Source of the DNA: a virus
Length of the DNA stretch: 41,323 nucleotides
Virus record (IMG/VR): IMGVR_UViG_3300025314_000044
Span: 1-41,323 of that record
Strand: one strand, 5' to 3'
Shown here: positions 15,454 through 33,865 of the stretch, in pieces
How the letters are laid out: each line of letters begins with the position of its first letter
Position numbering within the stretch: position 1 is the first letter of the stretch
The notes under the pieces: model-generated
The model's input: the letters and a program-made list of their open reading frames with translations, nothing else
Told to the model about the DNA's origin: nothing
The model's database searches: none
Position numbers and translations under genes: made by a program

Positions 15454-15469
15454 GTGCACAATCCTCACG

Positions 15470-15496: not shown

Positions 15497-15510
15497 TTCG
15501 GGGAGAGCCA

Positions 15511-16206
15511 ATGACGGTCGATGGTCTGAAAAAGTATCTGGTCTCGATAGCAACCGGCGGACAGGCCAACCCGGCGCTGGATCAAATTGCCCTGGCTGCC
15601 ATCGAAGCGGGATATGCAGGCGTGTGGGGAGCAGCGGAATGGAAGTTCCGCAGACGCTACTCTGCGGCCAAAAGCACAACGGCGAATCAGGAGTACACGT
15701 CACTTTTGGATTCGATTGAATGTGTCACGAGCATCATTCTGGTGGACGGTGGGAACAGCCTGTCGGTCGACCTCAAGGATGAGGACTCGTTTAATTGGGA
15801 CACCCCTTACCCGCCAGCAGATACTGGCCAGCGCCCCTTTACGGCCAAGATCGTTTTCAATCAGGAGGGCGGGGCTAATGACAAGTGGCGTGTTTATTGG
15901 TATCCCGTGCCGGATAAGGTGTACACGATCCGGCTGACGTATCACAAGAAGGCTGACATCAATGATCTTCCGGCTCTGCCCTCTTACATGCTGGACGCAG
16001 TGATTGAAGCCTGTTTTGTCAAGATGCAGCGCGCGCCGGATCAGCGGTTTGCGACCGATCAGGTTTATCAGCGTGTTTTGGAACGAGCCATTCTTGCAGA
16101 CAGAACGACCGGGGGTTATGCCCCAAGATTGGGAGCCGATGTCGGATGGGACGATTCTTCTGTTTCTGGCGGCGGCGGATCTGTTTGGGATCCGCGTTCT
16201 GGTTAA
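15511..16206 (+). CDS. Head-tail adaptor/neck protein (putative)
   Basis: A 231-residue protein from the ATG at 15511 after GGGGAGAG. The N-terminal half (LKKYLVSIATGG ... ALAAIEAGYAGVWGAAEWKFRRRY) is helical. The middle (VYWYPVPDKVYTIRLTYHKKADIND) is a strand pattern common in podovirus neck and adaptor proteins of the gp4-like type. It has no signal peptide, unlike the next gene. The tail is Gly/Ser-rich. Its position after the capsid gene supports a portal-attached ring. Confidence 0.55.
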   Translation: MTVDGLKKYLVSIATGGQANPALDQIALAAIEAGYAGVWGAAEWKFRRRYSAAKSTTANQEYTSLLDSIECVTSIILVDGGNSLSVDLKDEDSFNWDTPYPPADTGQRPFTAKIVFNQEGGANDKWRVYWYPVPDKVYTIRLTYHKKADINDLPALPSYMLDAVIEACFVKMQRAPDQRFATDQVYQRVLERAILADRTTGGYAPRLGADVGWDDSSVSGGGGSVWDPRSG

Positions 16207-16853
16207 TGGGATGGGGCATTGTTCTTGTTCTGCTGATGTTCCATGATTCCTATGCCCAGATTCGTGATCTGGTGGGCACGCGGTATGCTGTGCGTGCTTT
16301 GCTGGCTGAACCGGCCACCACGTATTTGGCTGACAGCACGCTCAATAAGATGGTGAATATCGCCCACCGGATGACTCTGCGAGAGCTGGGTGATCGTACA
16401 ATTGTGGGTGTTGATTCGATTGTCACGACGCCGGGACTCACGCGGTACGCGCCTAACAGTGATTTTGCCAGGATTACCGGTGTTGTGCGCAGGAGCACAA
16501 CAGCAACAGGTGGTATGGATTTTGCACTGGCTTACATTGATCCCGAGCAACTGGGCCGGCTGGGTGTGGGGCCCTACCCCGAACATTATTATCAGAGCGG
16601 CAGGTTTCTTGTTTTGGGGCAGTCTCCACAGGGCGGAGACACCCTGGTTGTGTACTACGTGCCCTACGCCCGCAATCTGGACACCGACACGACGCAGTTG
16701 CAGGTTGCTCCGGAAGATCATCAGACAGTTGTCTTTCTGGCGGCGGCGCTGGCCACGGCCAGAGACTACAATCAGGTGATGGCGCAGGTCTGGCTCAATC
16801 TTTGGACAGTGGGTGTGAGAAAAGAAACGGCTCCAGCGGCGGGACAACCATGA
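16206..16853 (+). CDS. Second neck/adaptor protein, with a signal-peptide-like N-terminus
   Basis: About 215 residues from the ATG at 16206 (TAATG overlap). An ATG at 16146 would add RRR-containing residues that make a better Sec n-region. The hydrophobic segment GIVLVLLMFHDSYA is followed by QIRDL, so cleavage after SYA is plausible. The body (TRYAVRALLAEPATTYLADSTLNKMVN) has the look of head-tail connector proteins, which often carry a 'LADS' helix. Such a protein normally docks on the portal in the cytoplasm, so a cleavable signal would be unexpected. The ATGA overlap couples it to the nozzle gene. Confidence 0.55.
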   Translation: MGWGIVLVLLMFHDSYAQIRDLVGTRYAVRALLAEPATTYLADSTLNKMVNIAHRMTLRELGDRTIVGVDSIVTTPGLTRYAPNSDFARITGVVRRSTTATGGMDFALAYIDPEQLGRLGVGPYPEHYYQSGRFLVLGQSPQGGDTLVVYYVPYARNLDTDTTQLQVAPEDHQTVVFLAAALATARDYNQVMAQVWLNLWTVGVRKETAPAAGQP

Positions 16854-18547
16854 AGTGGACCAGGATGATCATGCTCTTTGTGGCCGGGCTGGCCCTTATT
16901 TCCCTGGGAGCCGTCGCCGCCCCGGAACAATTCGTCATCAAGATCGATCAGTGGGCAGGTCTGTCGTCCGATGAGCAATACGCGCCGCAACTGGGGCCGG
17001 CGACCGACATGGTGAATTTTGAGATCGGTGTTGCGGGCGGCGCGACCTATCTCAAGCAGCGGCGCGGCATTCGCCGCGTGACCGGCTTTCTTCCTATGAA
17101 TGTGTACATTCTGGCTGCGGGGATGTACAGTCCGCGAGGTTACACGCAAAGCATCGTGATTGCCGGATCAAACGACAAATTCTACTCGTGCAGCCGTGCC
17201 GACACCAATCACATTGTCTGGGCGGAAGTATCCACGTGGAATGGCGACAGCACGCATCCGACCCGGCGCTATACGAATTTCATCCAGTTCAAGGACACGC
17301 TGGTCGGAGCGGGGGCGGATTCCATCAATCTGTTTGTGCCCAGAACGGGAGCGACAAACCGCCTGTCGCGGGTTCTCTCATACGCATGGACCTACGGGCG
17401 GCTGCTTGTCCATCAAGATCGTGTCTATGCTTACAATGTGGCATACAGCGGGTCCGCCAACGATCAAAAACTGGCATGGATGCCGGAGTTCGATCTGCGG
17501 TTTAATTTGCTGGATACCGCTATCGGCAGCGGCTATGTCTATATCGGACGCGATGACGCGGATTTTATGACGAATGTTCTTGCGATGGGCGGCAATCTTG
17601 TTGTCTACAAGTCTCACTCGATCTATAACGTTCTGATCGGATCAGAAACGAATAAGCCTGAGCAGATCATCAAAATCACGGATAACGTGGGTGCTCTTTG
17701 TTACGATGCGGCATGTTCGTACAATAATATCCACTACTTTGTTTCGGCGGACGGGGTGTTTCAATATGACGGGTCGGCCGTGGCAAAAATTTCGCAAGCC
17801 ATTGACGGCTGGTTCCGCGATTCGCTTCAGGTTATCAAGACGGTTGAGAGTTCCGCTATTGTGATTCAGGCCGTCGAGAACCGGTTATATGTGGCCTTGC
17901 CATTGCGGAGTCCCGCGGATGAGCGCGGCACGGCTGGACTGCGGATTTTTGTCTACGATTTGATGAACAGGATTTGGTGGAAGATGATTCCCAATCCAGT
18001 TCCCGACAACAATGTTCATCAATTCCTGCGGTATGATTATCCCGATGGCGTTGCTGTTCCCTTTGGGGGATCGACGACGGACGGTTTTCGCTACCGGTCC
18101 CGGCTGATCATGCTGTATGACAGCGCCGTCGGCGCTAATCATTACAACGCTGCCTATATGTTTCCCGGCGATATGAATGCGGGAACAAAGACCTACAACG
18201 ACAATGGCGGGCGCACGAACCCTTCCTACACGACGGGCTTCGTGCCGGTTCATGGATTGTGGAGCCGCAGCCAGTTGCAGCGTGCAGGCATCTTTGGATC
18301 GGGCGATTCCGGAACATCGAGCATCGCTTGCACGGTCAAGGTTGACTGGTATGGAGAGGCCGGCACGATCATCGATAGCACAAAGTTCCCGCTGACTTCC
18401 GCGCCGGGGGCCGTGCTCAAGCGGCTGCCGCCGTCCATCTCCGGTCAGATGCTGAAGTTCCGGATTCGCACCAGCGATACGGCGCTGGTGAAAATCAACC
18501 TGCTGGAGATTATCGGTTCCCAGAAGGGGCTGGCCAATGACAACTAA
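16850..18547 (+). CDS. Nozzle-like beta-propeller tail protein with Sec signal peptide
   Basis: A 565-residue protein. Residues 1-24 form a clear signal peptide: basic start (MKWTR), hydrophobic core (MIMLFVAGLALISLGAV), and an AA cleavage site before PEQ. The body carries repeated strand-turn units (LLVHQDRVYAYNV, NLVVYKSHSIYNVL, HYFVSADGVFQYDG, NRLYVALPL) like the propeller of podovirus nozzle or stabilisation proteins. DMVNFEIGVAGGATYLKQRRG resembles their N-terminal 'NF...G...R.G' region. It would close the portal channel. Its export signal conflicts with that role, unless it acts outside or is retained as a membrane anchor. Confidence 0.6.
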   Translation: MKWTRMIMLFVAGLALISLGAVAAPEQFVIKIDQWAGLSSDEQYAPQLGPATDMVNFEIGVAGGATYLKQRRGIRRVTGFLPMNVYILAAGMYSPRGYTQSIVIAGSNDKFYSCSRADTNHIVWAEVSTWNGDSTHPTRRYTNFIQFKDTLVGAGADSINLFVPRTGATNRLSRVLSYAWTYGRLLVHQDRVYAYNVAYSGSANDQKLAWMPEFDLRFNLLDTAIGSGYVYIGRDDADFMTNVLAMGGNLVVYKSHSIYNVLIGSETNKPEQIIKITDNVGALCYDAACSYNNIHYFVSADGVFQYDGSAVAKISQAIDGWFRDSLQVIKTVESSAIVIQAVENRLYVALPLRSPADERGTAGLRIFVYDLMNRIWWKMIPNPVPDNNVHQFLRYDYPDGVAVPFGGSTTDGFRYRSRLIMLYDSAVGANHYNAAYMFPGDMNAGTKTYNDNGGRTNPSYTTGFVPVHGLWSRSQLQRAGIFGSGDSGTSSIACTVKVDWYGEAGTIIDSTKFPLTSAPGAVLKRLPPSISGQMLKFRIRTSDTALVKINLLEIIGSQKGLANDN

Positions 18548-19595
18548 GATTGCTGCTATTGTCTTTTTGCTGCTGGCGCTGTCTGGCGTTGTGCTGGCCG
18601 ATCCCGTGCGTCCCATGCAGCCTTATCCCATCACGTCGAACGAGTCCGGATTTCTTGACCGGCAGATACAGGAGATTTACCAGCGCATTTTGCGTTACGT
18701 GGATACGCTGAACCAGTTGCGGCGTGACACGGCGAATGCCGCACTGGCAAGCGCGAGTCTCTATGACGATACGGCCAGTCAGGGATTGTGGAAAGCCACC
18801 AAGGCCCGCGACACGGCCAATATCGCCTACGCCCGGATCAATCTCTACGACGACACGGCCAGCTTGGGATTGTGGAATACGGGCAACAATATCACAGTCA
18901 GGCGGGTCAATACCGATACCATAAAGTCTCACAACAGCGATGGGGATCTCTATCTGGAGGTTGGCACCGGAATCGTGGTGATTCGGGACTTGAATGATAA
19001 TGGCCCCGGACAATTGTACTTCCGCGAGAAACCGTCCAACGGAACCAGTTACATCGGTCTTGAGGCTCCGGCCTCTCTCAGCGCAAGCAAGCTCTTTGTT
19101 CTTCCGGGTGCGGATGGAAACAGCGGGCAGGTGGTATCGACAAACGGTGTGGGCACTCTGTCATTTACCACGAGAGCTACGCAGGCGGAGATCAACGATT
19201 CTCTGCTGACCGTTCGGAACACAGCGAACGCTGCGTACAGCGAGGCATATCTGGCCATGGATACGGCCAGCATTGCTCTTAGGCCAAGAGTCCAGGCGGG
19301 GACAGCGGTGCTGCCGGCATCGCAAACCCTCGATACCGTTATCATCAAGAATGCTGCTGGTATCGTTCAGCACTATGTGAACCAGTATACTTATGCCGTG
19401 TTCATTACACCGATTGGCTACAATAACGTGGCCGACATCTGGTATGGCCCGACCGGCAATGTGTACGACTCGCTTACTGTTTGCGGGAACCTCACAACCG
19501 GCTATTTACTGACCGACTCCTCCTTTGCAGTTCATAAACTTTGGAACGGGACATACGACTTGCGCATCTACTGGATGGTGATGCGGATTCTTTAG
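18537..19595 (+). CDS. Fibre-like protein with Sec signal peptide
   Basis: A 352-residue protein overlapping the nozzle-like gene by 11 bases. It begins with a basic start, a hydrophobic core (IAAIVFLLLALSGVVLA) and a likely cleavage site before DPV. Residues about 60-130 contain repeated DTANAA/LYDDTAS...LW units typical of a trimeric fibre shaft. The C-terminal third is beta-rich and ends in YWMVMRIL. Repeated 'RDTANxAY' motifs reappear near residue 230. It is probably a tail fibre or appendage. Confidence 0.6.
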   Translation: MTTKIAAIVFLLLALSGVVLADPVRPMQPYPITSNESGFLDRQIQEIYQRILRYVDTLNQLRRDTANAALASASLYDDTASQGLWKATKARDTANIAYARINLYDDTASLGLWNTGNNITVRRVNTDTIKSHNSDGDLYLEVGTGIVVIRDLNDNGPGQLYFREKPSNGTSYIGLEAPASLSASKLFVLPGADGNSGQVVSTNGVGTLSFTTRATQAEINDSLLTVRNTANAAYSEAYLAMDTASIALRPRVQAGTAVLPASQTLDTVIIKNAAGIVQHYVNQYTYAVFITPIGYNNVADIWYGPTGNVYDSLTVCGNLTTGYLLTDSSFAVHKLWNGTYDLRIYWMVMRIL

Positions 19596-19606
19596 GAGAA
19601 GGTGAC

Positions 19607-22087
19607 ATGCCCAAAGCAGGGATTTCACAGGCAGAGTACGAAGCGCGGGAGCGGTTTAAGAAGAAAAAAGCAGCGGCATCCGGCGCGGCGGCCGAGATTG
19701 CTTCTGGGACAGCGTCCGTTCCCAGTGTTGTGCCAGCCGCAAAAACTTCGGGGACGGCAACGGCACTGCCTGCCGGGAATGCCGTGCCGGCCGCTGGGGC
19801 AGCCGGAGAGATTGCCACCGGCATAGTGGAACTGACGCCTAAGTCCGGGCTGCCGGAGGCCAAGGGTCTTGATGCGGGCGGTTCGGGGAAACCAGTCATC
19901 ACCGAGACGACTATGGATACCGGCACCACGCCCGAGAGCCCTCCGCCGGATCTCGAAGCGATAGATGAGGGTCAGGGGGGGAAACCGGTTGCAGTACCAG
20001 AATCGGACACCACCCCGCGAGGATACAACTCTATGCTTTGGGGAGAAATCAGGATGCAGCCCCCCAAGCGTTATGAAATTCCCGGCATGGATGCAGAATG
20101 GGCATGGTTCTCAGCACCTAATGAATTGCGGAATGATTATGATTTTATGATGCAATGGGATGCTCTGCGGGCTGAAGCTGAATCGTTAGCAAGGGAGGCC
20201 CGAAGTCAGGACCTTACAATTCCTGAGATGAGGCGGGGGGGGCTGGCAGATCTTTACCGTAAGCAATTCGCCGATCTTCGAAACCGGCAACAGTCCTTGA
20301 TTGACAGTTTTTGGACCACCTCAAATGGTCAACCTGGGGACGGCTCAACGATTTATGATCCGGCACGTGAGGATCCGGATCCCAATCCCACAGACCCCGA
20401 TAGCGAAACGCCAATACCAACTAAAACGCCAGCCCAACTCGCAGCTGATCAGGCTCTCAAAGATGCACTGGCCATGCTGGCGGCAGCCCAGGCCGGTGAC
20501 CAGGGAACCGGAGCGGCGCAAGCAGCGGTCAATGCTGCAATGAGCCAGTATTTATCGGTGTTTGGTGGTAATGGCGGCGGGAGTGGCTGGACACCACCGG
20601 TTCTTTCTGCTGCGGAACGTGAAGCATCGGGCGGCGGGACGACGGCAACCGATCAAACTGGGCTGGTTACAGGTAATGCGACCACGGGTCAATCGGATGC
20701 TCAGAGCGCTGCGGATGAAATTGCTGCGGGCAGTCAGCAGCAAACGGCGTTACCGGCAGTGGATCCGCAACAGGAGAAAATAAAGAAGATGGGGGATTTG
20801 GGCAGACAGTTACAGGAGGCGGTTGCCAAGGGTGACATGATTGCAGTGGGCAAGATCAATGCAGAAATGACAGCGTCATTGGCTGTGCCCGCAGCGGCAG
20901 GAACTCAAATGGCATCAGTGACCGATCCCAATCAGGCGGCGGGCGGCGGTGGAGTTCCTGTTGCTGATGGCGGCAGCACTGGCGGCGGGACGGAGGCGAC
21001 TACGGCCGGGACCGACTTCGGGGACTTGCTGAACAAGATCAAGAATGGTGTTGGTGTTACTCCAAACGATGTTCCCACGGGACTGACACAGGAGCTTCTT
21101 GACAGTATTATGAAACAGTCGCCGGAACTGACGCCGGAGCAGCGGGCGGTGATCGAGCGTGATGCTGATGAAGCGATGGCGTCGGCGTTGTCTGCTCTGT
21201 CGGCGCGGGGTATTGGTCTGGGATCTGATGCTGCCAAAGCGCTTGTTTACGGTGAGTTTCAGAAAAAGTCGATGATTGCGGCGGAACAGGCGCGGATTCG
21301 CTCAGAGAATACACGGAATGCGCTGGCGGCGGCAGGACTCTCGATCGAGAATTTGAAGAACGCCCAGGGATACTCGATGCAACAGCGGCTGGCTACGCTT
21401 CAAGAAACACTCGGCATTGCTGATATCGTTCAGAAACAGCAAGATTCCGCTGCGCGAGCTAACGAGTTCGCCCAAACGTTTGGATTGGATCAGGCGAAGT
21501 TTGGAGAAGCTGTTCGCCAGTATGATAAATCATTCGGGCTGGATGAAGCCAAGTTCGAGGAAATTAAGAAACAGTTTGCCGACACGTTTGGTCTGGACAC
21601 CGAGAAATTCAAGGCGGCGGTTGATCAGTTTGAAAAAACCTTTGGGCTGGATAAAGACAAACTGGCGGAAGCCAAGCGGGAGTTCGAGGCTGAGTACCTC
21701 GTGAAGGTTGAGGATCAGGCGTTCATGCATGCGCTTCAGACGGGGCAGTTGAGTCTTGAGGCGATCAGGGTGGATAACAGTCAGCAACTTGCATTGATCC
21801 AGGAAGCGAATGACGTTATTCAGAAAACGGCAGACCGTGATTTGGAAGAACGTCTTGGAATCAGCAAGCTGCAACTAACGGCAATGCTCAGTGGCCGGGA
21901 AATGGATATCAGCGAAGCGTCTCTTGGTTTGCAGAAATGGATGGCGCAGATGGGATATCAGGTTGATTTGGCCAAAATCGAAGCTGGTCTTCAGGGGCAA
22001 ATAGATGCCAACCGGCGGGCTGGCGATGCCAATGCGAATGCCGGCATGTGGCAGGCGATAGGTCTCTTTGCGATGCTGCTTCTTTAA
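19607..22087 (+). CDS. Large ejection-type internal virion protein with FGLD repeats
   Basis: An 826-residue protein; AGGAGAAGGTG precedes the ATG at 19607. Residues 1-480 are Ala/Gly/Pro-rich low-complexity sequence with short conserved islands (YEIPGMDAEWAWFS). From about 500 it is a long helix. Near residues 620-690 a 16-20-residue unit (TFGLDQAKF, SFGLDEAKF, TFGLDTEKF, TFGLDKDKL) repeats four times. It ends in a short hydrophobic segment (MWQAIGLFAMLLL). This resembles podovirus ejection proteins that form a channel across the envelope. Confidence 0.6.
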   Translation: MPKAGISQAEYEARERFKKKKAAASGAAAEIASGTASVPSVVPAAKTSGTATALPAGNAVPAAGAAGEIATGIVELTPKSGLPEAKGLDAGGSGKPVITETTMDTGTTPESPPPDLEAIDEGQGGKPVAVPESDTTPRGYNSMLWGEIRMQPPKRYEIPGMDAEWAWFSAPNELRNDYDFMMQWDALRAEAESLAREARSQDLTIPEMRRGGLADLYRKQFADLRNRQQSLIDSFWTTSNGQPGDGSTIYDPAREDPDPNPTDPDSETPIPTKTPAQLAADQALKDALAMLAAAQAGDQGTGAAQAAVNAAMSQYLSVFGGNGGGSGWTPPVLSAAEREASGGGTTATDQTGLVTGNATTGQSDAQSAADEIAAGSQQQTALPAVDPQQEKIKKMGDLGRQLQEAVAKGDMIAVGKINAEMTASLAVPAAAGTQMASVTDPNQAAGGGGVPVADGGSTGGGTEATTAGTDFGDLLNKIKNGVGVTPNDVPTGLTQELLDSIMKQSPELTPEQRAVIERDADEAMASALSALSARGIGLGSDAAKALVYGEFQKKSMIAAEQARIRSENTRNALAAAGLSIENLKNAQGYSMQQRLATLQETLGIADIVQKQQDSAARANEFAQTFGLDQAKFGEAVRQYDKSFGLDEAKFEEIKKQFADTFGLDTEKFKAAVDQFEKTFGLDKDKLAEAKREFEAEYLVKVEDQAFMHALQTGQLSLEAIRVDNSQQLALIQEANDVIQKTADRDLEERLGISKLQLTAMLSGREMDISEASLGLQKWMAQMGYQVDLAKIEAGLQGQIDANRRAGDANANAGMWQAIGLFAMLLL

Positions 22088-22102
22088 TGAACGGATGATA
22101 TT

Positions 22103-23476
22103 ATGACTGGGATTAACATTGCATCGTATCGGACTAAACTGACAGGGCTTTTTCGCCAGCAGAACATTGGTGAACAGCTTAAACAGTCATCCGGGTTTGA
22201 AAAGTTCATTGAGATGATCCAGCCGTTTGTGATGCAGAAGAAAAAAACGGCCGCAGAGGAGAAGAAGACCGCCGAGGCCCGCGCCTATGGGGAGCAACGG
22301 ACGAAGGAAGCGCGTGAGTATGAGGAGCAAGTGACACGGGGCAGCGAGCAGCGGGCAGAGAATCGCCGGAGTGATCAATCGCTTGATCAGGCTGCGCTGG
22401 AAGGTGAAAACCGGAAATTACTTGGGCAAGTCCATGACCAGCGTGACGCATTGGTCGACCAGTTTTGGCAGGCGCAAACTTCAGCGGAGCGCAGGCCGAT
22501 TATGGGCAGGATTCGCTCTCTCGATGCACGGGCCGAGAATCTTGGAGGCAAGGCTATTGGTGATCAGATATTGAAAGACGTGTCGGCGTTCGAGGAAAAG
22601 ACCCCAACCCCAGCAGGTGAAAAAGCCCCGGTTGTCAAACCAAGTGCCCAGCGGTTTATCGACATGCTTGATCAATGGGGCGCTGAACAGGGGCGCACTC
22701 CACAAGAGAAATTTGCCGCCAGCGGTCTTGCGGCTGCCGCCGAAACCAATGGGCTGACGGTTCAAGAAGTGAATGACATCTTGGCACTTGTGCAGCCACC
22801 AGAAGCCGAGGCTGCTCCCGGTGGTATCCAATCCGGGGATTTGCTTTCGCCAGAGGCGGGGAAACAAGCCGCCGGGACAATGGAGAAACTGACGCAGCGC
22901 AGTCAGTTGAGCGATTTTGAAGCAGCATCGGATACGACGGGTGCTGTCACTCTTGGTATGGGTGCAACGCAACTACCGGTATCTGTGCCGGAGTCGCTAA
23001 TTCCTGAAGGCGCCACCACGACCAAAGAAGGTTCGGCGATGATGAACGAATACTACGCCGAACTCAAGAAAAAGAAGATGCTTTGGGATGCTGAGGGAAA
23101 CAAAAAGCGCAGCGATAACAATATCAGTGACCCGATTGTCCGCAGCAACATTTTCCGGGCAGTCGAGAGGCGGTTCAAGCCCAAGGCAGTTGATGCAATC
23201 GTGTCCGGGGATTCATCGAGTGAGGATTGGATGAATGAACCTGCTGAGGATTCTGTTTCTGTGTTGTCGCCAGAGTTGAAGACGGAGATGGACCGGCCGA
23301 GTGAAGATCGTCTTCGCTCTGCGGTTGAAGGGATTCGGAATTCGGGCTTTACGGCTCAAGATGTTCAGGCTAATCGTGGAATGTGGACGATTCGGCTTGG
23401 TCAGTTGGGTCTGACCGTTGATGAGATTATCAAGGAATTAGAGGCTGGAGTAACTACTCCTGTTCAAGTGCCATAG
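22103..23476 (+). CDS. Internal virion (ejection) protein, coiled-coil
   Basis: A 457-residue, mainly helical and highly charged protein (KKKTAAEEKKTAEARAYGEQ) with Gly/Ala-rich linkers. It sits between two larger internal-type proteins, like the three-protein ejection sets of podoviruses. No enzymatic motif was seen. The start ATG is 16 bases after the previous stop with a weak ribosome site (GGATGATAT). The exact role is inferred from position. Confidence 0.55.
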   Translation: MTGINIASYRTKLTGLFRQQNIGEQLKQSSGFEKFIEMIQPFVMQKKKTAAEEKKTAEARAYGEQRTKEAREYEEQVTRGSEQRAENRRSDQSLDQAALEGENRKLLGQVHDQRDALVDQFWQAQTSAERRPIMGRIRSLDARAENLGGKAIGDQILKDVSAFEEKTPTPAGEKAPVVKPSAQRFIDMLDQWGAEQGRTPQEKFAASGLAAAAETNGLTVQEVNDILALVQPPEAEAAPGGIQSGDLLSPEAGKQAAGTMEKLTQRSQLSDFEAASDTTGAVTLGMGATQLPVSVPESLIPEGATTTKEGSAMMNEYYAELKKKKMLWDAEGNKKRSDNNISDPIVRSNIFRAVERRFKPKAVDAIVSGDSSSEDWMNEPAEDSVSVLSPELKTEMDRPSEDRLRSAVEGIRNSGFTAQDVQANRGMWTIRLGQLGLTVDEIIKELEAGVTTPVQVP

Positions 23477-23478
23477 CC

Positions 23479-26400: not shown

Positions 26401-27204
26401 GCTGCTGTTGAACCGAAGTTTTTGAACATGCCGAATACGCGCTGGCTGGGGGTTCTCAAGCGATTTGTGTACAAGCAGACAATTCTCTCGCGTGACATGA
26501 TCTGGAATGAGATCAAAAAGGGGAACGTTTTTCCTCTTGCTCGCCTGGCGGCCGGTGGTCTTCTTGGTGGAGATATTGCACTGAGAGCGAAAGATAAGGT
26601 GCAGGAGATGATTTCAGGCAAACACAAGTTCCGGGATGACGATCCTTTCTGGCAGCAAATTCCGAATCGCTATGCGGTGATCGGGACGCTGGGAATGATT
26701 TCAGACCTTGGCTGGATCGACGAAGACAACCCGGCGCTGGTGCTGCCAAAAATCTACGAGGGGGCGGCATTCGAGATTACACCGGTTCTTTTGAGTGACA
26801 TTACTCGTGGCGGGAGTATTCTTTTTCAAGAGGCCGCACGAGGCGGGAAGGAGCTTTTTGGCAGCGAAAAACAAAAAGCGGAACTCGATTGGAAGAACCA
26901 TCTTGGGGAACTGGGATCGGATGCAGTTGCAGTATTGGGCACCTTTGGTTATCAGGCATCAAGCCAGATGCGAAGCGACAAGACCGAATCCGCCCAAAGC
27001 GAGTACGTCTATAAGCAGCGTCTTTCTGCGGCCCGCCGCGCCTATTGGGGCGGGAACAAAGCCAAGGCATACCGGATTCGTGACGAGTGGAACAAGTATA
27101 GACACCAATATCCGATGCTCAATGATCAGAAACGCATGGCTGCCGGGCGCAAAATCACAGACGAGGCCATTTCAGACATTCGTGTAAAAGAGACGTATCA
27201 GTAG
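23479..27204 (+). CDS. Giant internal virion protein (polyvalent-type)
   Basis: A 1241-residue protein, the largest in the genome. Residues about 95-230 include amphipathic and hydrophobic helices. Residues about 258-289 are four AEAKAFAE repeats. The C-terminal 500 residues (HPISYGAHKASRIWANATYG, WAPMIQVTQPLISI, FFSFANRALDYVTGATGEVFARD) look like the conserved membrane-active end of large podovirus ejection and polyvalent proteins. It probably travels with DNA into the host and may cross or anchor in the membrane. An 11-C run (24398-24408) lies in the linker and could cause frameshift variants. Confidence 0.6.
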   Translation: MPTRVDPYDFSDMPVSIYDFKDMPRGLPSSSRLNDPVGRALIESGLMTAEDVDPFNAAAFTPEPASSTSVAGVRTESPAVVPSTETPQENPFQMFMQKMSELNLNPHVARSGLAGPVAALGTAAEVVSGTVGQFRQKATADMSLAETGFGLIKNAAAGLMDMYPALAQLPEAMLRDPSGTMEALLEFVPHQAMLLWKASVPAGTKEEQEQKRLAQNALFEDPLGAVFAALIVGGLTHVSVKTIKKYKAASAIAKFEVAEAKAFAEAEAKAFAEAEAKAFAEAEAKAFAEATGTDIYGDIAKSRAEPAPPPNVPTRSLTTSVETPPPSGQPITDPSRLIGMAGTKGEVAGPVGEGQFFTKPKLYGRGRIPEERAVESAQYGGPEFSETAGPLGGESRFFEGDVPPRTMGTAPEGNFMDFIARLKGANGYDVTSGKPPKPPRYQPFLRSGQFTESKILDEKFKAANEPSILESAHPHTVVPEISATPAGVAEIDVQGWMKRRIARQQRIFAVMTQFGKRLTIPEAKAAVAELQAMNMEANQYAGNIGEDFRGVGSLLQRPGPGPALQRKWTGTKVFTMEEWMARPEVRALYIKMGQALEDAGVTMLKADGTTVPFKMSEDFLRTGPQRWKLDILEKIWDDVGGAVDAARGAAKTQGQSGNIAWIDNYLNKTSEDLKSMKQSTQDAVKALIDAKAAKTTGQALRMLADESSNQMFRRTGVEFPRTRRMPDYFLETNPAILTGRYIGEWSRTLAEVNHFGPARGRLADIIARVEKADPREGAMLRDLSDVMMGVVDRSHPISYGAHKASRIWANATYGVKIGAGWAPMIQVTQPLISIIPDAGLVRVAQGTWKALHPVERALLRRTGTVGTSAFRKMMGSYGSAGPWSYIPTTQFFSFANRALDYVTGATGEVFARDLHRIANLSDDVLATPIGKLRRDWARTKLQERFGMDYTKAIEQSDFIKITQKYANELQLHPDAAVEPKFLNMPNTRWLGVLKRFVYKQTILSRDMIWNEIKKGNVFPLARLAAGGLLGGDIALRAKDKVQEMISGKHKFRDDDPFWQQIPNRYAVIGTLGMISDLGWIDEDNPALVLPKIYEGAAFEITPVLLSDITRGGSILFQEAARGGKELFGSEKQKAELDWKNHLGELGSDAVAVLGTFGYQASSQMRSDKTESAQSEYVYKQRLSAARRAYWGGNKAKAYRIRDEWNKYRHQYPMLNDQKRMAAGRKITDEAISDIRVKETYQ
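24250..24345 (+). repeat. Four 24-bp tandem repeats (AEAKAFAE-coding)
   Basis: GCCGAAGCGAAAGCCTTTGC followed by CGAA is repeated exactly four times. The unit encodes eight helix-forming residues, so copy number changes keep frame and lengthen the helix. Perfect identity suggests a recent expansion. Confidence 0.9.
24398..24408 (+). repeat. Eleven-C homopolymer in coding sequence
   Basis: The tract encodes consecutive prolines in the linker of the giant virion protein. Runs of this length slip during replication or sequencing; the frame as given is open. Loss or gain of one C would truncate the protein near residue 310. Confidence 0.85.
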
Positions 27205-27214
27205 GAGACAGCAC

Positions 27215-27538
27215 ATGACGAAAGAGAAGAGCAACGGGGTGTGGAAGTGGGTGGCAGGGATCCTGGGGCCAGCGGCAGTCACGGTGGGGCTTTTGATGTA
27301 CACCGGGACACAGGCCAGAATCAGCGAGGGCAACGTTGCCATTCTCGAAGCGCTCAAAGAAGTGAAGGTACAGGTCAACTTGCACGATTCGTCGATCTCC
27401 CGGCTGAACACGATCGGGGCTGTTGACAACCAGTGGCAGCAAATGATCGAAAAGAAGATTGACCTTTTGCTGCGGCACAATCAGATTCCAGAGTATCTGT
27501 GGCCGTCGATCCCGGCGGACACAACAGGAGGACAGTGA
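27215..27538 (+). CDS. Small membrane-anchored coiled-coil protein (lysis or spanin-like candidate)
   Basis: A 107-residue protein with an N-terminal cytoplasmic basic part (MTKEKSNGVWKW) and one membrane segment (VAGILGPAAVTVGLLMYTG). A helical domain (EGNVAILEALKEVKVQVNLHDS) and a Pro-rich tail follow. The layout suggests an inner-membrane protein with a periplasmic coiled coil, as in i-spanins or accessory holins. It directly precedes a two-segment holin candidate, with a one-base stop/start overlap. AGGAGACAGCAC precedes the ATG. Confidence 0.55.
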   Translation: MTKEKSNGVWKWVAGILGPAAVTVGLLMYTGTQARISEGNVAILEALKEVKVQVNLHDSSISRLNTIGAVDNQWQQMIEKKIDLLLRHNQIPEYLWPSIPADTTGGQ

Positions 27539-27750
27539 TGCTCAAGACACTTCTACAGGATAAGACCACGGCGCTCATTGCGATTGTCGCCATGATCTGC
27601 GGGACAGCACTGGTGATTTTCGGCAAGCTGGCCGTGAATGAGGACATGATTTTGAAGGCACTGGCATTCGTGTTCGGCGGGCCGCTGGTATCGAGCGGAC
27701 TCAACAAGATTTACAACTCGACGCCATCAGAGCCACCGGCACAGCCATGA
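27538..27750 (+). CDS. Holin (putative)
   Basis: A 70-residue protein with AGGAGG before the ATG at 27538. Two hydrophobic segments (TALIAIVAMICGTALVIFG and ILKALAFVFGGPLVSSG) are separated by a short charged turn, and the tail is polar and Pro-rich. That is the class II holin layout. It precedes a papain-like hydrolase gene by an ATGA overlap, as in holin-endolysin pairs. Function is inferred from topology and context. Confidence 0.6.
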   Translation: MLKTLLQDKTTALIAIVAMICGTALVIFGKLAVNEDMILKALAFVFGGPLVSSGLNKIYNSTPSEPPAQP

Positions 27751-28448
27751 TCGATGCCAGCAAGCTCATGCCCGGCGACGTGATCCTGACCTACGGGGAG
27801 TTCCGCTGGTGGCCGCCGAAGTACTGGTTGCTGCCGATCTTCTATGCGGCGATTCACAAGTACCAGAAAGCCAAGTGGGGGCCACAGAGCGATTACAAGC
27901 CGACGCATGTACGTGTAGTGCTGGCTCCAGGGTTCTTCGAGGTCACGTATCCCAAGGCGAGATTTGGGTACATGGCAGAGGTCAAGGGGCGATACAAGGT
28001 ATGCCGATACCGTGGTGACCTGAACGAGAATGCTCTGTACGCCAAGGCGTATGCCCTTGTGGGGTCGGCATACGACATGGGCGACAATCTGGACTTCGGT
28101 TTGTCGGCACTTCTGGGATTTCTAACGCGCAACTTTCGGGTCTTTGGAGATCGGGCAAAGAAGTATTTTGTGTGCGGTACGGGGGCCGCCGAAGTGCTAA
28201 CCAACGGCGGGGCGAAGTTTACAATGCAAGCGATTGATCCGGCCTACTTTGTGAACATGCCGGATTGGGCAGTGGTTCAGGAAGGAGAAGCGGATCAGGT
28301 ATCAAGCCTATATTCGCAAACTGGCTCAGGCTCTGAGAACCGAACTCTTCCTTGGGGAATATGCGCTGGACATTGTTTTCTTCAAGGGAGCTATACCGGA
28401 TTACGAGAATGCTGCGGCGACTTGCGATGTGGACAATACCTATCTTGA
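27747..28448 (+). CDS. Permuted papain-fold (NlpC/P60/YiiX-like) hydrolase
   Basis: The first about 185 residues show LMPGDVILTYG, then a His in KPTHVRVVLAPG (His54), then YFVCGTGAAEVL with Cys143: the His-before-Cys order of the permuted NlpC/P60 (YiiX/YaeF) group. It could cleave peptidoglycan peptides or lipids. Following the holin candidate, a lysis role is likely; a virion role is possible. The last about 50 residues (after QEGEADQ) look like out-of-frame sequence and overlap the metallopeptidase-like frame. The true end may have been lost by an indel or the two frames may be joined by frameshifting. Confidence 0.6.
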   Translation: MIDASKLMPGDVILTYGEFRWWPPKYWLLPIFYAAIHKYQKAKWGPQSDYKPTHVRVVLAPGFFEVTYPKARFGYMAEVKGRYKVCRYRGDLNENALYAKAYALVGSAYDMGDNLDFGLSALLGFLTRNFRVFGDRAKKYFVCGTGAAEVLTNGGAKFTMQAIDPAYFVNMPDWAVVQEGEADQVSSLYSQTGSGSENRTLPWGICAGHCFLQGSYTGLRECCGDLRCGQYLS

Positions 28449-28767
28449 CATCACCGTAAAAGTGGCTGGCATAGTGCAAAAACACTGGAGAAATAAGCAC
28501 TACTGGACGATCTGCAACATTTTGTGCCATGAACTGTGCCATGCTCTGACGGACCCTCTTTATCATTGTTCAATTCAGCGGATTCCTGACAAGAAAATAG
28601 GAGCATGGGGACTGGTCAATAACGAATGGGAGCGCGTACGGGAACGCCAGACACAGCGAATCACCAATGTCGTGATGGCTCTTTTGCCAAAATCATTTTA
28701 CTGGCCTGCTACTGTAGGAAATGTTAAGACGGGTCCAAAACCAGTTCATCGAGGAGGAAAAACATGA
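28294..28767 (+). CDS. HExxH metallopeptidase-like protein lacking a canonical start
   Basis: This frame encodes coherent protein from about 28294 (ALDIVFFKGAIPDYENAAA) through CNILCHELCHALTD, a zinc-peptidase HExxH motif, to a later NNEWERVRERQTQRI segment that may supply a third ligand. The upstream stop is near 28251, and the only standard start is a GTG at 28429 that would drop 45 residues. A strong AAGGAG at 28282-28287 stands six bases before an in-frame ATC (28294). Options are AUC initiation, +1 frameshift from the previous gene, or a recent mutation or sequence error. The stop overlaps the next ATG. Confidence 0.5.
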   Translation: MRYQAYIRKLAQALRTELFLGEYALDIVFFKGAIPDYENAAATCDVDNTYLDITVKVAGIVQKHWRNKHYWTICNILCHELCHALTDPLYHCSIQRIPDKKIGAWGLVNNEWERVRERQTQRITNVVMALLPKSFYWPATVGNVKTGPKPVHRGGKT

Positions 28768-29312
28768 AACGAATTGGTGCAATTCTCATTCTGTGCCTGT
28801 TGCCCTCACTGGCGCTGGCGCAGTACTACACGCCGGTTCCGGCGGAGGAGTCAAAGATTGCTGTCAACTCGACGGTGATTACCATCGTCCGGGGGCCGCA
28901 CGCTGGGGATCTCTGGCTGGACGCCGGGGTGTCCTACCGGATACTCAGGATCGGATCGGCGCACGTGGCCGTTCTGGCGCGGGCGCTCAGGATCGAAGGA
29001 CAGCCGCCAGCATCATTCGGCTTGTCCGGGCTGTGGATCGAGCACAATATCCTGGGCTGGGACCGGCTGGACATGATCTATGAAGTCGGCGGCGCGAACA
29101 AGATCGCCGCTGGGGATGCTGGCGACAAGGACTGGGGGCTGATTACCGGGGTTGCGGCGAATTTGCACATCTCGGATCAGTCGATGGTGTTCCTCGGCGC
29201 CAAGGTCTTTCAGAACGAGCCGGGGAAGATCGAGTCGGCAGGCGTGGGGCTGGGATTTGCGCTCTACTGCGATGAATGGCTGGGCAAGCTCTGGCCGGGG
29301 AGTCATCCATGA
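28764..29312 (+). CDS. Exported beta-barrel-like protein with Sec signal peptide
   Basis: A 182-residue protein with GAGGAGG before the ATG. It opens with a textbook signal peptide: MKRI, core GAILILCLLPS, and an ALA cleavage site before QYY. The mature part is a series of alternating strands (DLWLDAGVSYRILRIG, HVAVLARALRIEG, WGLITGVAANLHIS, MVFLGAKVF, GVGLGFALY), like a small outer-membrane barrel of 8 strands. If made in the host it could sit in the outer membrane and alter phage or nutrient entry; a virion part is the alternative. It lacks the usual terminal Phe. Confidence 0.5.
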   Translation: MKRIGAILILCLLPSLALAQYYTPVPAEESKIAVNSTVITIVRGPHAGDLWLDAGVSYRILRIGSAHVAVLARALRIEGQPPASFGLSGLWIEHNILGWDRLDMIYEVGGANKIAAGDAGDKDWGLITGVAANLHISDQSMVFLGAKVFQNEPGKIESAGVGLGFALYCDEWLGKLWPGSHP

Positions 29313-29641
29313 CTCCAGACTCTATTCGCGCAATTGTCATGGCAGTGCTGATGTCGCTGGGCGTTGATACGACATCAATAACCAATCGTGTGTCAACGTC
29401 TTACCTCGTGGCAGATTCCATCAGAAGGACAGAATGGAAAAGCGACTACGTAGTGCCGGCCGATTCTTGTGTGGCAATTCAAGACAGGATGAAACTGAGG
29501 CAGCAGTGGTATCTCCACACGATCCCTCTAAACAGGGGGCATATCGTCAGAATCGACACGACAGAAGCTCCTCCGATGCCAATACCAGTCGTGATCCCCG
29601 ACTTTCGCGTTTTCGACACGGTGTGGAGTTGTGATGAATAA
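29309..29641 (+). CDS. Hypothetical protein beside fibre genes
   Basis: A 110-residue protein starting at an ATG that overlaps the previous stop. The N-terminus has a moderately hydrophobic helix (SIRAIVMAVLMSLGV) without a basic start, so it is a doubtful signal or anchor. The rest is beta-rich and Pro-rich near the end (APPMPIPVVIPDF). It may be a small appendage or chaperone for the neighbouring fibre-like genes. No family recognised. Confidence 0.5.
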   Translation: MTPDSIRAIVMAVLMSLGVDTTSITNRVSTSYLVADSIRRTEWKSDYVVPADSCVAIQDRMKLRQQWYLHTIPLNRGHIVRIDTTEAPPMPIPVVIPDFRVFDTVWSCDE

Positions 29642-31574
29642 ACTTCTGAGGTTTTGCGTGGTGGCCGCTCTGCTGTTATACAGCGGGGCGGCATGGGCTG
29701 CCCCGGTTCCGACCGGAGCCGCATCCTGGTATGACTCGGCGACCAGCAAGATTCATCAGGCATTCGGACCAATGGGGGCGCCGGTCCTCAATTACCAGAA
29801 CCCTGACGGCAGGTGGTCATCCTACAAGGACGAATGGGTGCTGGCCGGCCAGTCAAAAGTATGGCGGTCGGACAATGGCCGGGACGCCGTTTACACCGAT
29901 TCCACGGGAGCCTTTTATGTGCGCCGCGACATGCACTGGCTCGGCATCAGACCGCCTCAGCTGGTCAAGTTCAACACGCTGGACTCCAGCTACAACGTCC
30001 TGGCGGCTGCCGATCCCGACAGCGTGACGGCAGCCGGTAACGTCGTGACATTTTGGGGGATTTTCTACGGCGCCAACCTGCGGGCGCGCAACAATCCGAA
30101 GATTCTCCAGCTGAGCAAACTGGAATGGGAGTTCACGCAGGCGGCGCGTGATTCGCTCGCCAAACTGACGCCTTGGGCCAACCGGCTGCTTGCGACCGTG
30201 CATCGCATTGACGCCGATTCGCTCGGAGTGGCGGCATGGCGCGACCGGCAGGGAGAATTTACACAGACAGCTAGCGGCCGCATGACATCGGGCTGGTTCG
30301 ATCTTCGTAGCGGCAATGAGCGCATCTGGGTGTTGCCACCGTCCATCATCACCATGGCGGACACAGTGACGGCGATTCCTGTCTGGAAGCGCGTGGCGCT
30401 GATCGGCGGCAATCCGTTTTTCTTTGAGGCGTTCAGCCCGGCGCAAACGGCGGCTCTGCCTCCCGGCTCTTTGTATCACGATGTAAAATTCGGGCACGAT
30501 ACCGGAACCGTTTCAGGTGGTGCGAACATTGAAGGTGTTCCCTACGGAATAAAGGCCAGTCCGCCAACATCGGGAACGGTGGACAGCATGGCCGCGATGC
30601 TGGACTGCGGCATTGCGGATCATAACGTCACTCCCTCATTGCGCAATTGGGGGGCATGGACACTGGTCACGGGCGGATGCGCGACGGAAAAACTGATCCC
30701 TTTCGGGGTCAATGACACCTGGTACACCTTCACGGGGATGAGCGCCGCTGTTACAGCGGGCACGAATTACTGGCTCAATATATGGGGTAATGTCACCGGA
30801 GGAACAGTCAGTCTCAATAAGGGCGCAAGCGTGGCCGATTCATCAATGTCGGATATTGGCGACACATATACATCGGCGTGTCCGGCGCTGACAGGCACTT
30901 TTGTCGGTGCAAAGGACTGGTGGCTGATTTACTGTTTCTATACGGTGAATGCCGGCGAGCCAGTCACATTCGGATACGATGGCGATGCGGCCAATGTCTA
31001 CAGTTTGCTGGAGCGTATGGATGCCTCACGATTCACGCCTGAATACAGCGGTGTGGTGGACAGCATTGGTGCGTGGGTGTTAGCTGACGCCACCCAGACG
31101 TTTGCCTGTGCGATTTATCCGTGGCGAGGCACGGCGGCGATTGATTCGGCTCCCCGCTTCACCCATGGCACAACAACCCACACGCGGAAAATCACGGCAT
31201 CGTACCTGAATGCCAGCATCACGGCAGGCACGTGGTACGCGATCTGTATTCAGGCGTCGGGAGTCAACTCGTATTGGATTTATGCGACCACTGGACTCGC
31301 AGATACGGACAGTGCGTCGGGAGTTACTCACACATACGGGTCTTGGCCATCATCACCATCATGGCCGGCAACTGCCGGGTACCGCCGAAACTCTGTTTTT
31401 GCAATCTATCATATACCGGCAGGGGGGGCCGCCGTTTCTGGCAGGCGGCGGAGACAGCAGGTTGGATCGGCAGATTCTGTGGAGTATCGCACAATCATCG
31501 TGGAGGGTGGACGCTACGCAGATGTGCCCAGCAGCAAGACCGATTCGGTCAGAATTGCATGGGGGATACAATGA
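29634..31574 (+). CDS. Large exported fibre/adhesin-like protein with Sec signal peptide
   Basis: A 646-residue protein from the ATG at 29634 (GGAG upstream). The signal peptide is clear: NKLLRF, core CVVAALLLYSGAAWA, cleavage before APV. The body is beta-rich with two similar domains about residues 275-420 and 430-590; each has a DSMAAML/DSIGAWV strand and a TAGTNYWLNIW/TAGTWYAICIQ motif, like repeated jelly-roll or carbohydrate-binding units. This suits host-glycan recognition. A Cys-containing, Thr-rich composition fits extracellular exposure. Confidence 0.6.
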   Translation: MNKLLRFCVVAALLLYSGAAWAAPVPTGAASWYDSATSKIHQAFGPMGAPVLNYQNPDGRWSSYKDEWVLAGQSKVWRSDNGRDAVYTDSTGAFYVRRDMHWLGIRPPQLVKFNTLDSSYNVLAAADPDSVTAAGNVVTFWGIFYGANLRARNNPKILQLSKLEWEFTQAARDSLAKLTPWANRLLATVHRIDADSLGVAAWRDRQGEFTQTASGRMTSGWFDLRSGNERIWVLPPSIITMADTVTAIPVWKRVALIGGNPFFFEAFSPAQTAALPPGSLYHDVKFGHDTGTVSGGANIEGVPYGIKASPPTSGTVDSMAAMLDCGIADHNVTPSLRNWGAWTLVTGGCATEKLIPFGVNDTWYTFTGMSAAVTAGTNYWLNIWGNVTGGTVSLNKGASVADSSMSDIGDTYTSACPALTGTFVGAKDWWLIYCFYTVNAGEPVTFGYDGDAANVYSLLERMDASRFTPEYSGVVDSIGAWVLADATQTFACAIYPWRGTAAIDSAPRFTHGTTTHTRKITASYLNASITAGTWYAICIQASGVNSYWIYATTGLADTDSASGVTHTYGSWPSSPSWPATAGYRRNSVFAIYHIPAGGAAVSGRRRRQQVGSADSVEYRTIIVEGGRYADVPSSKTDSVRIAWGIQ

Positions 31575-33865
31575 AGCGGATTCTGGTGTTGCTGGCGGTG
31601 GCGCTGTGCGTGGCGGGAAGTGCGCGGGCGCAAATTGTCCGGAATGCCACAACAGGTTTGACTCCGGCGGACAGTCTGCTGCCGATTATCATTCAACTGT
31701 GGGACTCGGCGGGGTATAACACGGTAGCCATCGACACGACTTTGGACTCCGCCTACATTATCATCCACTACCCGAACGGCGATTCTTGTTACAGCGACAA
31801 CTTCGCGCTGGACGTATCAAGCGAAGGCGGCAAGGTTGATCTGGTGCGGCGGTACGGGTCTGTCATTGCCGCGAGTTACACTGACCAGATTTCCAACATC
31901 GACGGCATAGGGCGCATGGGGAATTACAGTTACATCGTGGTCGCCCGTGATTCATCGTTGAAGCTCAGCAACCCGCCCTTTGGAATCCGGGGCACGTTCC
32001 AGGTGCTGGACACATTACTGAATACGGCCCTGGCCCGGCTGGACGCGGCGGTCAGCAGCCGGTGGGCTGCTTCTGACAGCGCAAACGCCTCGGCCAGCGC
32101 CGCCAACAAGACGTGGGGAACATCATTCGGCGCGGCCTTTACCGCTGGTTCGATGGGTGATTCCCTTAACAATCCTACCTATGTGACCAACAATGATTCT
32201 GCCTACGTGAAGGGGAACATTGCTGGGACGGTGGCGCAAGTTAATTATGTGGGTTCTAATGCGATTCAGTCCTCATCGTTTCAAACGGGGGCGATCACTA
32301 GTGCTTCAATTGCTGATGCCGCAATCGACTCCGCCACATTTGCCAATGACGCTAAAAAGATGATCGCTATTCGTGCGGATTCCGGGACGGCGAAAACGCT
32401 TGCCGCTTCTCAAACGTTCAACATGACGGGGAATATCACGGGGAATCTGTCCGGATCGGTGGGATCAGTGACGAATGACGTGGGAGTTAAATCCCCGGAC
32501 ACAATCGCGGTAGTTCTCAATGTCAACAACATCGCCTCGACCGACACGATTACGACTGTCCTGGGCAATGTGAACGGATCGGTGGCGAGCGTCACGGCGA
32601 AAACAGGATACTCTCTTTCGGATGCCGCCTACGGGGTGGCTGCTGATTCTCTGGCGAAACATTCGGCTAATGCGTCTCTACCGGACACGACTGTTGGCGG
32701 TGCTCTCCGCGAACTGCATGATTCACTCGACACACAGACATGGGCTTCGACTGGGAGCGCTTCCAGCATCGACTCGCTGATGATCCGGCGCTGGGTATGG
32801 GACAGCACATCCGGCAAGTACATTCAGGGGGGCGTGCTCTATAAACGGACGGCAGACTCGGTGTATCTGGCCAACATCAAAGCCGCTGACACGGTCAGTC
32901 TGGTTACGCTGGCCACGACGACAACGAGTGTCACCAATGACGTAGGAGTCAAAGCCGACGACACGGTCCTCTACGTCCGGCATGTGGATACCGTGCTCTA
33001 TGTGGCAGTCGCGGGCACAGCCAACAGCGTCAACATCAAACCCGATGACACGGTGTTGTATGTGCGTCATGTTGATTCAGTCATCACAAGCCCATCGGGA
33101 ACGGGGCTGGATTCAGCGACTACCAGCCGGATTATTGGCCGCAAAGCGTGGGGCATTGCGGCGGGCAATGGTTCTGATTCTGTGGCGGCCACTCTGCGTT
33201 ACATTGCCAATCCGGGCGGATCATCTGCGGGAACGGGCGACAAACCGGAAAGTCTTTATGTCGTCGATACGTCTGGAGCTGACACACGAATTTCCGGGGC
33301 AAAGATCACGCTTCAAAATAGTGCGATGACGCTGACCAGCCCTTTTATTCTGACAACAAATGCCTCCGGGTATGCGATTTTCAACACAGATGCTTCCACC
33401 ACGTACAAGGCGCTTGCCGACTACGGCGGCTATCTTTTCCCACTGCGTACCTTTACGACGTCTGCCGGGGCAACTGCTGGGATGGATTCGATTCCTGGTT
33501 ACGATCTTGTTCCGGGTGCAACATCTCCCGGCACGCAGAAGACGACACTTTACGACACACCGCGGGATGCTGGAGGCAATACCCTGCCTTATGCCACAGT
33601 CACCATTACGTTAGTAGGAAGCATGGGAGCGTATACCAGCACAACCGCCATTGTGCCGGGCCGGATTGTTGCGAGGGCTAATTCATCGGGTTTGTGGGAA
33701 GCGTCAATTTACGGCAACGATTCATTGTATGTTGGAGGCGTCGGATCGACAACAAGTTACGATATCAAGATCGAACACTCGAACCTGGTTCAGCCGGTCA
33801 CGTACCAGCAGATATTTGTCCCGGCTAACGGAGCAACAACAACACTGTTAAGTCTGCTTCCATAG
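31571..33865 (+). CDS. Tail-fibre-like protein with Sec signal peptide and beta repeats
   Basis: A 764-residue protein; the ATGA overlap couples it to the previous gene. Residues 1-21 are a signal peptide (MKRI, core LVLLAVALCVAG, cleavage ARA before QIV). The middle is a Ser/Ala/Asn/Thr-rich shaft with short repeats: TNDVGVKSPDT, TNDVGVKADDT and KPDDTVLYVRHVD units around residues 300-510. The C-terminal part (SGAKITLQNSAMTLT ... AIFNTDASTTYKA) resembles Ig-like or carboxypeptidase-regulatory domains, duplicated once. It is the last large structural gene before the lysozyme-like gene. Confidence 0.6.
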   Translation: MKRILVLLAVALCVAGSARAQIVRNATTGLTPADSLLPIIIQLWDSAGYNTVAIDTTLDSAYIIIHYPNGDSCYSDNFALDVSSEGGKVDLVRRYGSVIAASYTDQISNIDGIGRMGNYSYIVVARDSSLKLSNPPFGIRGTFQVLDTLLNTALARLDAAVSSRWAASDSANASASAANKTWGTSFGAAFTAGSMGDSLNNPTYVTNNDSAYVKGNIAGTVAQVNYVGSNAIQSSSFQTGAITSASIADAAIDSATFANDAKKMIAIRADSGTAKTLAASQTFNMTGNITGNLSGSVGSVTNDVGVKSPDTIAVVLNVNNIASTDTITTVLGNVNGSVASVTAKTGYSLSDAAYGVAADSLAKHSANASLPDTTVGGALRELHDSLDTQTWASTGSASSIDSLMIRRWVWDSTSGKYIQGGVLYKRTADSVYLANIKAADTVSLVTLATTTTSVTNDVGVKADDTVLYVRHVDTVLYVAVAGTANSVNIKPDDTVLYVRHVDSVITSPSGTGLDSATTSRIIGRKAWGIAAGNGSDSVAATLRYIANPGGSSAGTGDKPESLYVVDTSGADTRISGAKITLQNSAMTLTSPFILTTNASGYAIFNTDASTTYKALADYGGYLFPLRTFTTSAGATAGMDSIPGYDLVPGATSPGTQKTTLYDTPRDAGGNTLPYATVTITLVGSMGAYTSTTAIVPGRIVARANSSGLWEASIYGNDSLYVGGVGSTTSYDIKIEHSNLVQPVTYQQIFVPANGATTTLLSLLP

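Follow-up and report, generated by a model that had tools for sequence, protein, structure and literature searches.

Why would a tailed phage place export signals on parts of its own tail? The question is raised by IMG/VR virus record IMGVR_UViG_3300025314_000044, a stretch of 41,323 bases that was analyzed whole and is here called the window. Assembly of tailed phages is taken to be cytoplasmic, and an earlier note on this DNA had singled out six proteins of the virion block, beginning at 16206, 16850, 18537, 28764, 29634 and 31571, as tail parts with Sec-type signal peptides. Leader-like sequences are present, they are restricted to the tail side, two of the proteins that bear them are identifiable as a tail nozzle and an adaptor, the homologues of those two that were examined are leaderless, and the leaders occupy the position of an added segment. 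We consider the chances about even that the leaders are functional Sec signals that would export the distal tail, to be joined to heads outside the cytoplasm.

Leader-like N-termini and their distribution

Signal peptides were called with a crude scorer of our own, which rates the n-, h- and c-regions and the residues at -3 and -1 and was calibrated on Escherichia coli K-12. The calibration set comprised 25 exported and 127 other proteins, chosen within four 50-kb regions according to their annotation. Among the exported proteins, 24 of 25 scored at least 6.0 (FimD was missed) and 14 of 25 at least 7.5. The corresponding counts for the other proteins were 7/127 and 2/127, the latter being the NhaA antiporter and the DUF445 protein YjiN.

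By the n-, h- and c-regions and the small residues at -3 and -1, five of the six N-termini in the window are strong and one is weak. All six genes lie on the plus strand, and shuffles of residues 2 to 60 were counted when they reached the observed score (a slash marks the predicted cut). The highest score, 9.26, belongs to the protein at 28764 (28764 to 28820, MKRIGA..LALA/QY; 0 of 2,000 shuffles), which follows a GAGGAGG ribosome site. Next come 29634 at 8.75 (29634 to 29699, MNKLLR..AAWA/AP; 0 shuffles; a GTG at 29631 is also a possible start), the nozzle at 8.73 (16850 to 16918, MKWTR..GAVA/AP; 0 shuffles), 31571 at 8.35 (31571 to 31630, MKRIL..SARA/QI; 6 shuffles) and the fibre adjoining the nozzle, fibre 1, at 8.05 (18537 to 18599, MTTK..VVLA/DP; 1 shuffle). 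The predicted leader of the second neck protein, or adaptor, is MGWGIVLVLLMFHDSYA/Q (16206 to 16256), with SYA/QI as its best site; it reaches 6.17, a score matched by 75 of 2,000 shuffles, and if translation began instead at 16146, the longer N-terminus would include an RRR n-region and score 6.5. Thus, the attribution of Sec-type signals to six proteins stands firmly for five and weakly for 16206. The other particulars of the earlier description were accurate: a hydrophobic core and an AxA-like site are found in all six, with Ala at -1 of every best site, and the n-region is basic in all but 16206. The cores chosen by the scorer are 7 to 14 residues long.

Could the leaders be an artefact of assembly or of start calls? 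The record is uncultivated, its start codons are inferred, and several of them have no clear ribosome site. The starts overlap the stop of the preceding gene by 1 to 11 bases, however, which supports them. Moreover, L001, a second contig from this species, is 99.5% identical over 9271 to 28502, with 61 mismatches in 19 kb; it covers three of the six leader genes and keeps both the frame and the leaders, the sole difference within a leader being synonymous, at 16918. We find an artefact very hard to credit.

The split between leadered and leaderless proteins follows the geometry of the virion, tail side against head side and ejection. TerL, the portal, the scaffold, the capsid, the 19.6k and 22.1k proteins and the ejection proteins have no signal, and the first neck protein reaches at most 4.7, as the earlier note had held for the portal, capsid, first neck and ejection proteins. 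Two small membrane-protein-like open reading frames (ORFs), at 27215 and 27541, score about 6.8. Elsewhere, none of 140 structural-block coding sequences from ten published phages reaches 7.5, the best being 6.9 (T7, 12; lambda, 22; SU10, 17; crAss001, 20; P22, 12; CRP-1, 13; Mosig, 7; DSL-LC04, 8; ctEqG8, 13; ctSlx955, 16; several records were covered only in part, and lambda Lom was scored separately, at 7.9). Even the nozzle and fibre 1 alone, two of eight conserved virion genes against 0/140, give a Fisher p of 0.0026. A broader Fisher comparison took 5 of 16 late coding sequences; a recount put the late coding sequences at 17 or 18, a minor change.

The nozzle and the adaptor beside their homologues

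The protein at 16850 matches phrog_3287 (virion structural protein, E value 1.4e-8). An AlphaFold2 model built from 23 sequences had a predicted local distance difference test (pLDDT) score of 54 overall, with block means of 86 to 94 over residues 241 to 320, the propeller part. Foldseek placed phage tail complexes at ranks 1 to 10 (Pa223, VP1, SU10, Pan3, P22 gp10 and Pam1; E 2.6e-12 to 3.9e-7; template modelling scores of 0.27 to 0.44 by query), and other propellers followed from rank 11. On its profile match and predicted fold, the protein is a podovirus tail nozzle, as the earlier note supposed, with the beta-propeller protein proper encoded at 16919 to 18547. The neck-like protein at 16206 was also correctly recognized: its body (16257 to 16853) falls in the Pfam family SU10_adaptor (PF24175, E 4.3e-9), with residues 28 to 200 aligned to profile positions 9 to 174 at 37.5 bits against a cut-off of 27.

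Profiles of the adaptor and of the nozzle were built from relatives, with 26 homologues each. Position 1 of the adaptor profile corresponds to about residue 20 of the window's adaptor, an offset that the Pfam match reproduces, and in 20 of 26 adaptors an in-frame stop lies at most 12 codons from that position, leaving no room for a leader. Nozzles were compared by a near-invariant Asn (L007, L021 and L031 have another residue there). In 18 of 26 homologues the first in-frame start precedes it by 34 to 40 residues, and in 17 of 26 a stop too close for a leader leaves no more than 47 codons open before it. The window's nozzle starts 56 residues before the Asn, and its predicted mature end lies 33 before it. 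Moreover, scoring of all in-frame starts between the head of the ORF and the profile match gave no value as high as 7 in other phages, either for the 31 distinct adaptors or for the 66 distinct nozzles. These sets held 27 plus 4 adaptors and 36 plus 30 nozzles, with duplicates merged and four rows of the window's species left out of each first set; L028 came to 6.3 at an unlikely start, still below 7. Viral scans with the window's nozzle, capsid, portal and TerL as queries gave, among the matches listed, either the same species (L001, L002, L003, L005 and L006) or distant relatives, the latter with no leader on adaptor or nozzle. From the starts and stops of the homologues and from their lack of leaders, we conclude that the leaders of nozzle and adaptor were prepended, in this lineage, to complete tail proteins.

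An added N-terminus need not be a removed one. The six might stay uncleaved, as a plug of the channel, as segments that insert into a membrane at DNA ejection or as a tether to the inner membrane for tail assembly. The N-terminus at 16206 looks more like a hydrophobic segment than a charged signal, and the SU10 nozzle lines the tail channel (PMC9509320). Retention is difficult to reconcile, however, with the Ala at -1 in all six, the short cores and the five basic n-regions; most homologues start near the predicted cleavage point, and the fibre-like proteins are leadered too. We regard retained N-termini as distinctly unlikely, and true cleavage is favored by the Ala at -1, the short cores and the trimmed nozzle and adaptor ends near most homologues' starts.

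The window holds one nozzle ORF and no leaderless copy of it. Any nozzle in the virions must therefore be its product. A dual-start model for the nozzle was rejected, as no ATG, GTG or TTG occurs between codons 11 and 54. Since this sole nozzle gene carries the leader, either the leader is functional and the nozzle of the virion is an exported and trimmed one, or the leader is not engaged or not removed. With a standard nozzle that bears a signal peptide and no other nozzle in the genome, where tails are built becomes directly testable.

The same facts bear on the proposal that exported forms serve only at the envelope, in superinfection exclusion, in adhesion or as decoys, while virions use leaderless molecules from internal starts or molecules that escape export. 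Fibre 1 and the second neck protein do have an in-frame GTG or ATG soon after the leader. Lambda offers a precedent in Lom, an exported outer-membrane protein encoded among tail genes (PMC12309495), and the protein at 28764 would fit such a role. The nozzle does not fit it, with its long interval free of start codons, a conserved region before codon 54 and no leaderless second copy. Neither nozzles nor adaptors are known to have a surface role, which also counts against display. We judge display alone to be unlikely.

Fibres, late proteins and the rest of the genome

Fibre 1 (18600 to 19595) is tail-fibre-like: residues from about 155 to 212, a stretch of about 50, match three phage records at E values between 1e-5 and 9e-4; two of these records carry a tail-fibre annotation, and no family match below E 0.05 was found in PHROGs, Pfam or NCBIfam. 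Homology to the post-nozzle fibre of L004 was considered, as the two look alike by eye, and dropped at a BLASTP E of 2.1; the argument from an added leader therefore cannot be extended to fibre 1.

The remaining three proteins are harder to place; for them the earlier view that all six are tail parts of the virion block is weakened, whereas it is supported for the nozzle and the adaptor. The small protein at 28764 (28821 to 29312) may be an outer-membrane beta-barrel by its density of amphipathic strands, 4.9 per 100 amino acids (OmpA, 4.7; NanC, 4.7). By the same measure Lom has only 2.7, below lysozyme at 3.8, which makes the measure unreliable. The protein has no Pfam match, and AlphaFold2 without an alignment gave no usable model (pLDDT 34). 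Directly before it, a small ORF at 28429 to 28767 carries a HELCH motif of the HExxH type, which we take as a possible metallopeptidase mark. The two large late proteins, 29634 (body 29700 to 31574) and 31571 (body 31631 to 33865), are fibre-like by appearance only and match no family or phage record in PHROGs, Pfam, NCBIfam or the phage records, so they are only putative virion parts. PADLOC and NCBIfam scans gave nothing informative.

Leadered fibre or spike genes also occur in other contigs. Leadered genes (at least 120 amino acids, score at least 7.5) numbered 0 to 3 in each of 24 further phage genomes or contigs, which were covered for the most part, under greedy gene calls that, on the window, miss 31571 and give one false minus-strand call. 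On contig L215 of genome G030 (IMGVR_UViG_3300033148_002045), three leadered genes stand in a row between capsid and adaptor, at 12937 to 19289, with scores of 7.6, 7.5 and 6.9. The first matches Pfam Gp80, podophage GP4 fiber I (3.4e-15), and its three published homologues are leaderless; its leader is 23 residues long, but relative to the homologues its matched core is shifted inward by only about 16 residues, and the ends thus fail to line up. The second encodes a 1,269-amino-acid protein. The third encodes a 690-amino-acid protein with five relatives, 47 to 54% identical over the middle, whose ORFs lack a leader; they match from query residue 89 or later, and their N-termini were compared solely by leader absence. 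The adaptor and presumed nozzle of G030 have no leader. In G008, a tailspike on contig L152 (10398 to 13356; phrog_2234, 9.2e-13; a pectate-lyase-like Pfam match of beta-helix type, 6.6e-16) has a leader scoring 7.4. Further leadered genes in G007, G009, G010 and G025 have weak or no assignments, some being fibre-like by look. The gene directly after the presumed capsid, named by position, is also leadered in L058 (the same contig as L152), L065 and L094. Thus, leaders on fibre-type genes recur in contigs unrelated to the window (L215 and L152), and the fibre pattern is not unique to the window's genome, whereas a leader on nozzle and adaptor was seen only in the window's species. This recurrence suggests that such leaders arose more than once.

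Perhaps, then, no tail is exported at all, and the six are a patchwork of an exported outer-membrane protein (28764), surface-type proteins (29634 and 31571) and incidental hydrophobic extensions (the nozzle, fibre 1 and the second neck protein). Three of the six have no virion assignment, and 16206 is within the range of shuffles. Chance extensions agree poorly, however, with the comparison to the ten published phages, with a nozzle leader that is exactly the added part and with the reappearance elsewhere of leaders on fibre or spike genes. We consider a patchwork quite improbable.

The ends of the window repeat over about 140 bases and L005 spans the junction, so the window is probably a complete genome. 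Its tailed-phage genes include TerL (phrog_2, 6.7e-26), the portal (8741 to 10705, plus strand; phrog_1216, 1.3e-14) and the major capsid protein (14182 to 15453, plus strand; phrog_1357, 6.5e-28), the last two leaderless. A DnaB-like helicase, YqaJ, RecT and RusA were also identified, as was a lysozyme-like gene (phrog_3108, 3.6e-26, function unnamed; weak Pfam lysozyme match). The two leaderless internal or ejection-like proteins (22103 to 23476 and 23479 to 27204, plus strand) are so labeled from position and size only, with no PHROGs match below E 0.4; at 24348, an AEAKAFAE repeat in the second is 42 bases longer in L001 and is therefore variable in length. Differences between the window and L001 cluster in the scaffold gene, at 13780 to 14076, and none fall in the capsid gene. 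Between portal and scaffold, at 11031 to 13120, are a glycosyltransferase-2-like gene (PF00535, 6.9e-6) and a second gene with no Pfam match; the Manatee Spring phage (L020) likewise has genes named as glucosyltransferases, after its capsid gene. Similarity to published phages is low. TerL is at most 29% identical, the best match among 50,697 phage records being the Manatee Spring podovirus at 29%, the capsid is found in seven unannotated records, the portal in one and the nozzle in none. When genome contigs were scanned with the nozzle alignment, only one of the 193 candidate stretches was confirmed, in a Clostridia metagenome-assembled genome (L028), and no host was found in this way.

The leaderless first neck protein (15511 to 16206, plus strand) matches the adaptor profile in part (hhalign E 9.1e-5 over 46 columns; controls 0.06 to 0.65), and a direct comparison of the two neck proteins was not significant (E 0.24). 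The region from 15511 to 16853 therefore likely encodes tandem adaptors by profile, the first matching only in part. Genome G031 (L252, 4235 to 5511) also has two SU10-type adaptors in tandem before its nozzle (E 3.1e-32 and 1.9e-12), both leaderless. A division in which neck 1 serves heads and neck 2 serves tails is possible, and given the pair in G031 it provides no evidence for export.

A proposed two-compartment assembly and known tails

How might exported tail parts end up on a virion? The leaders would be functional signal peptides for Sec and signal peptidase I, prepended to complete, ordinary podovirus tail proteins: adaptor 2, the nozzle, the adjacent fibre and probably the distal fibres. 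The cytoplasm would be where heads, with capsid, portal, neck 1 and ejection proteins, are built and filled. The distal parts of the tail would be exported, trimmed to about the N-terminus of their homologues and kept in the periplasm, to join heads after the inner membrane has been opened by lysis proteins, or else at that membrane. The export, the cleavage, the storage and the place and time of joining are what we infer. Export tags on the tail side, absent from head and injected proteins and from the tail proteins of relatives, suggest that tail parts leave the cytoplasm before the particle is complete, and the signs of cleavage together with the leaderless head-side proteins favor distal-tail export with joining at or after the opening of the inner membrane. 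In its full form, a two-compartment morphogenesis would unite DNA-filled cytoplasmic heads with a Sec-exported, signal-peptidase-trimmed periplasmic tail of adaptor 2, nozzle and fibres at or after that opening, and the fibre-only forms in L215 and L152 would be partial or parallel versions. We offer this full form tentatively and hold it to be somewhat doubtful.

Several points weigh against export of the tail. The support comes from sequence and models, and the calls come from our own scorer instead of SignalP. Taken alone, the leader at 16206 is marginal, as the 7 of 127 nonexported E. coli proteins that reach 6.0 indicate. Eight of the 26 nozzle homologues start elsewhere relative to the Asn (L011, L021 and L027 at 26 to 27; L025 at 26 or earlier; L020 at 44; L043, L044 and L092 at 56 to 57), and none of these eight is leadered. 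A leadered nozzle and adaptor were found only in the window's species. The protein at 28764 may be a Lom-like outer-membrane protein, perhaps unrelated to the tail. A need for disulfide folding cannot explain the export of adaptor 2, which lacks cysteine, and the tandem leaderless adaptors of G031 mean that the neck pair was not invented for export. Known podoviruses attach nozzle and adaptor to their heads within the cytoplasm. Finally, separating heads from nozzle and adaptor by a membrane is a cost for which we know of no benefit.

Is there precedent for such an arrangement? The earlier note knew of no described tailed phage with this pattern. The open PubMed Central literature does not contradict it, as no tailed phage with signal-peptide-bearing structural proteins was found there in titles and the openings of abstracts among the matches listed, but leadered fibre or spike genes do exist in other uncultivated contigs. 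The absence of signal peptides has even been used as support for a phage origin of diversified binding proteins (PMC6199706).

Filamentous phages (Ff) have a coat protein with a type I signal sequence and assemble from the inner membrane (PMC4823517). They are an unrelated type of virus, however, with neither head nor tail, whereas the window encodes a tailed phage in which only tail-side proteins are leadered. An inovirus-type filament is excluded by the portal, terminase and capsid genes, and a scan for the extrusion ATPase covered part of the window's proteins. Lambda Lom resembles at most the protein at 28764 and is not a virion part. In P22, a host protease cuts 20 residues from the N-terminus of the virion protein gp7 (the record note names OpdA). 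The gp7 leader is not a Sec signal, and gp7 is among the 12 P22 proteins scored, none of which reaches 7.5. The fibres and spikes of L215 (G030) and L152 (G008) resemble the window in carrying a signal-peptide-like leader where relatives have none, and the leaderless adaptor and presumed nozzle of G030 set it apart. Podovirus tails of the SU10 and P22 type share with the window the order of portal, scaffold, capsid, adaptor or adaptors, nozzle and fibre, the nozzle fold and the SU10_adaptor family. The adaptors and nozzles examined in other phages are leaderless, and at the sequence level those of the window are leadered.

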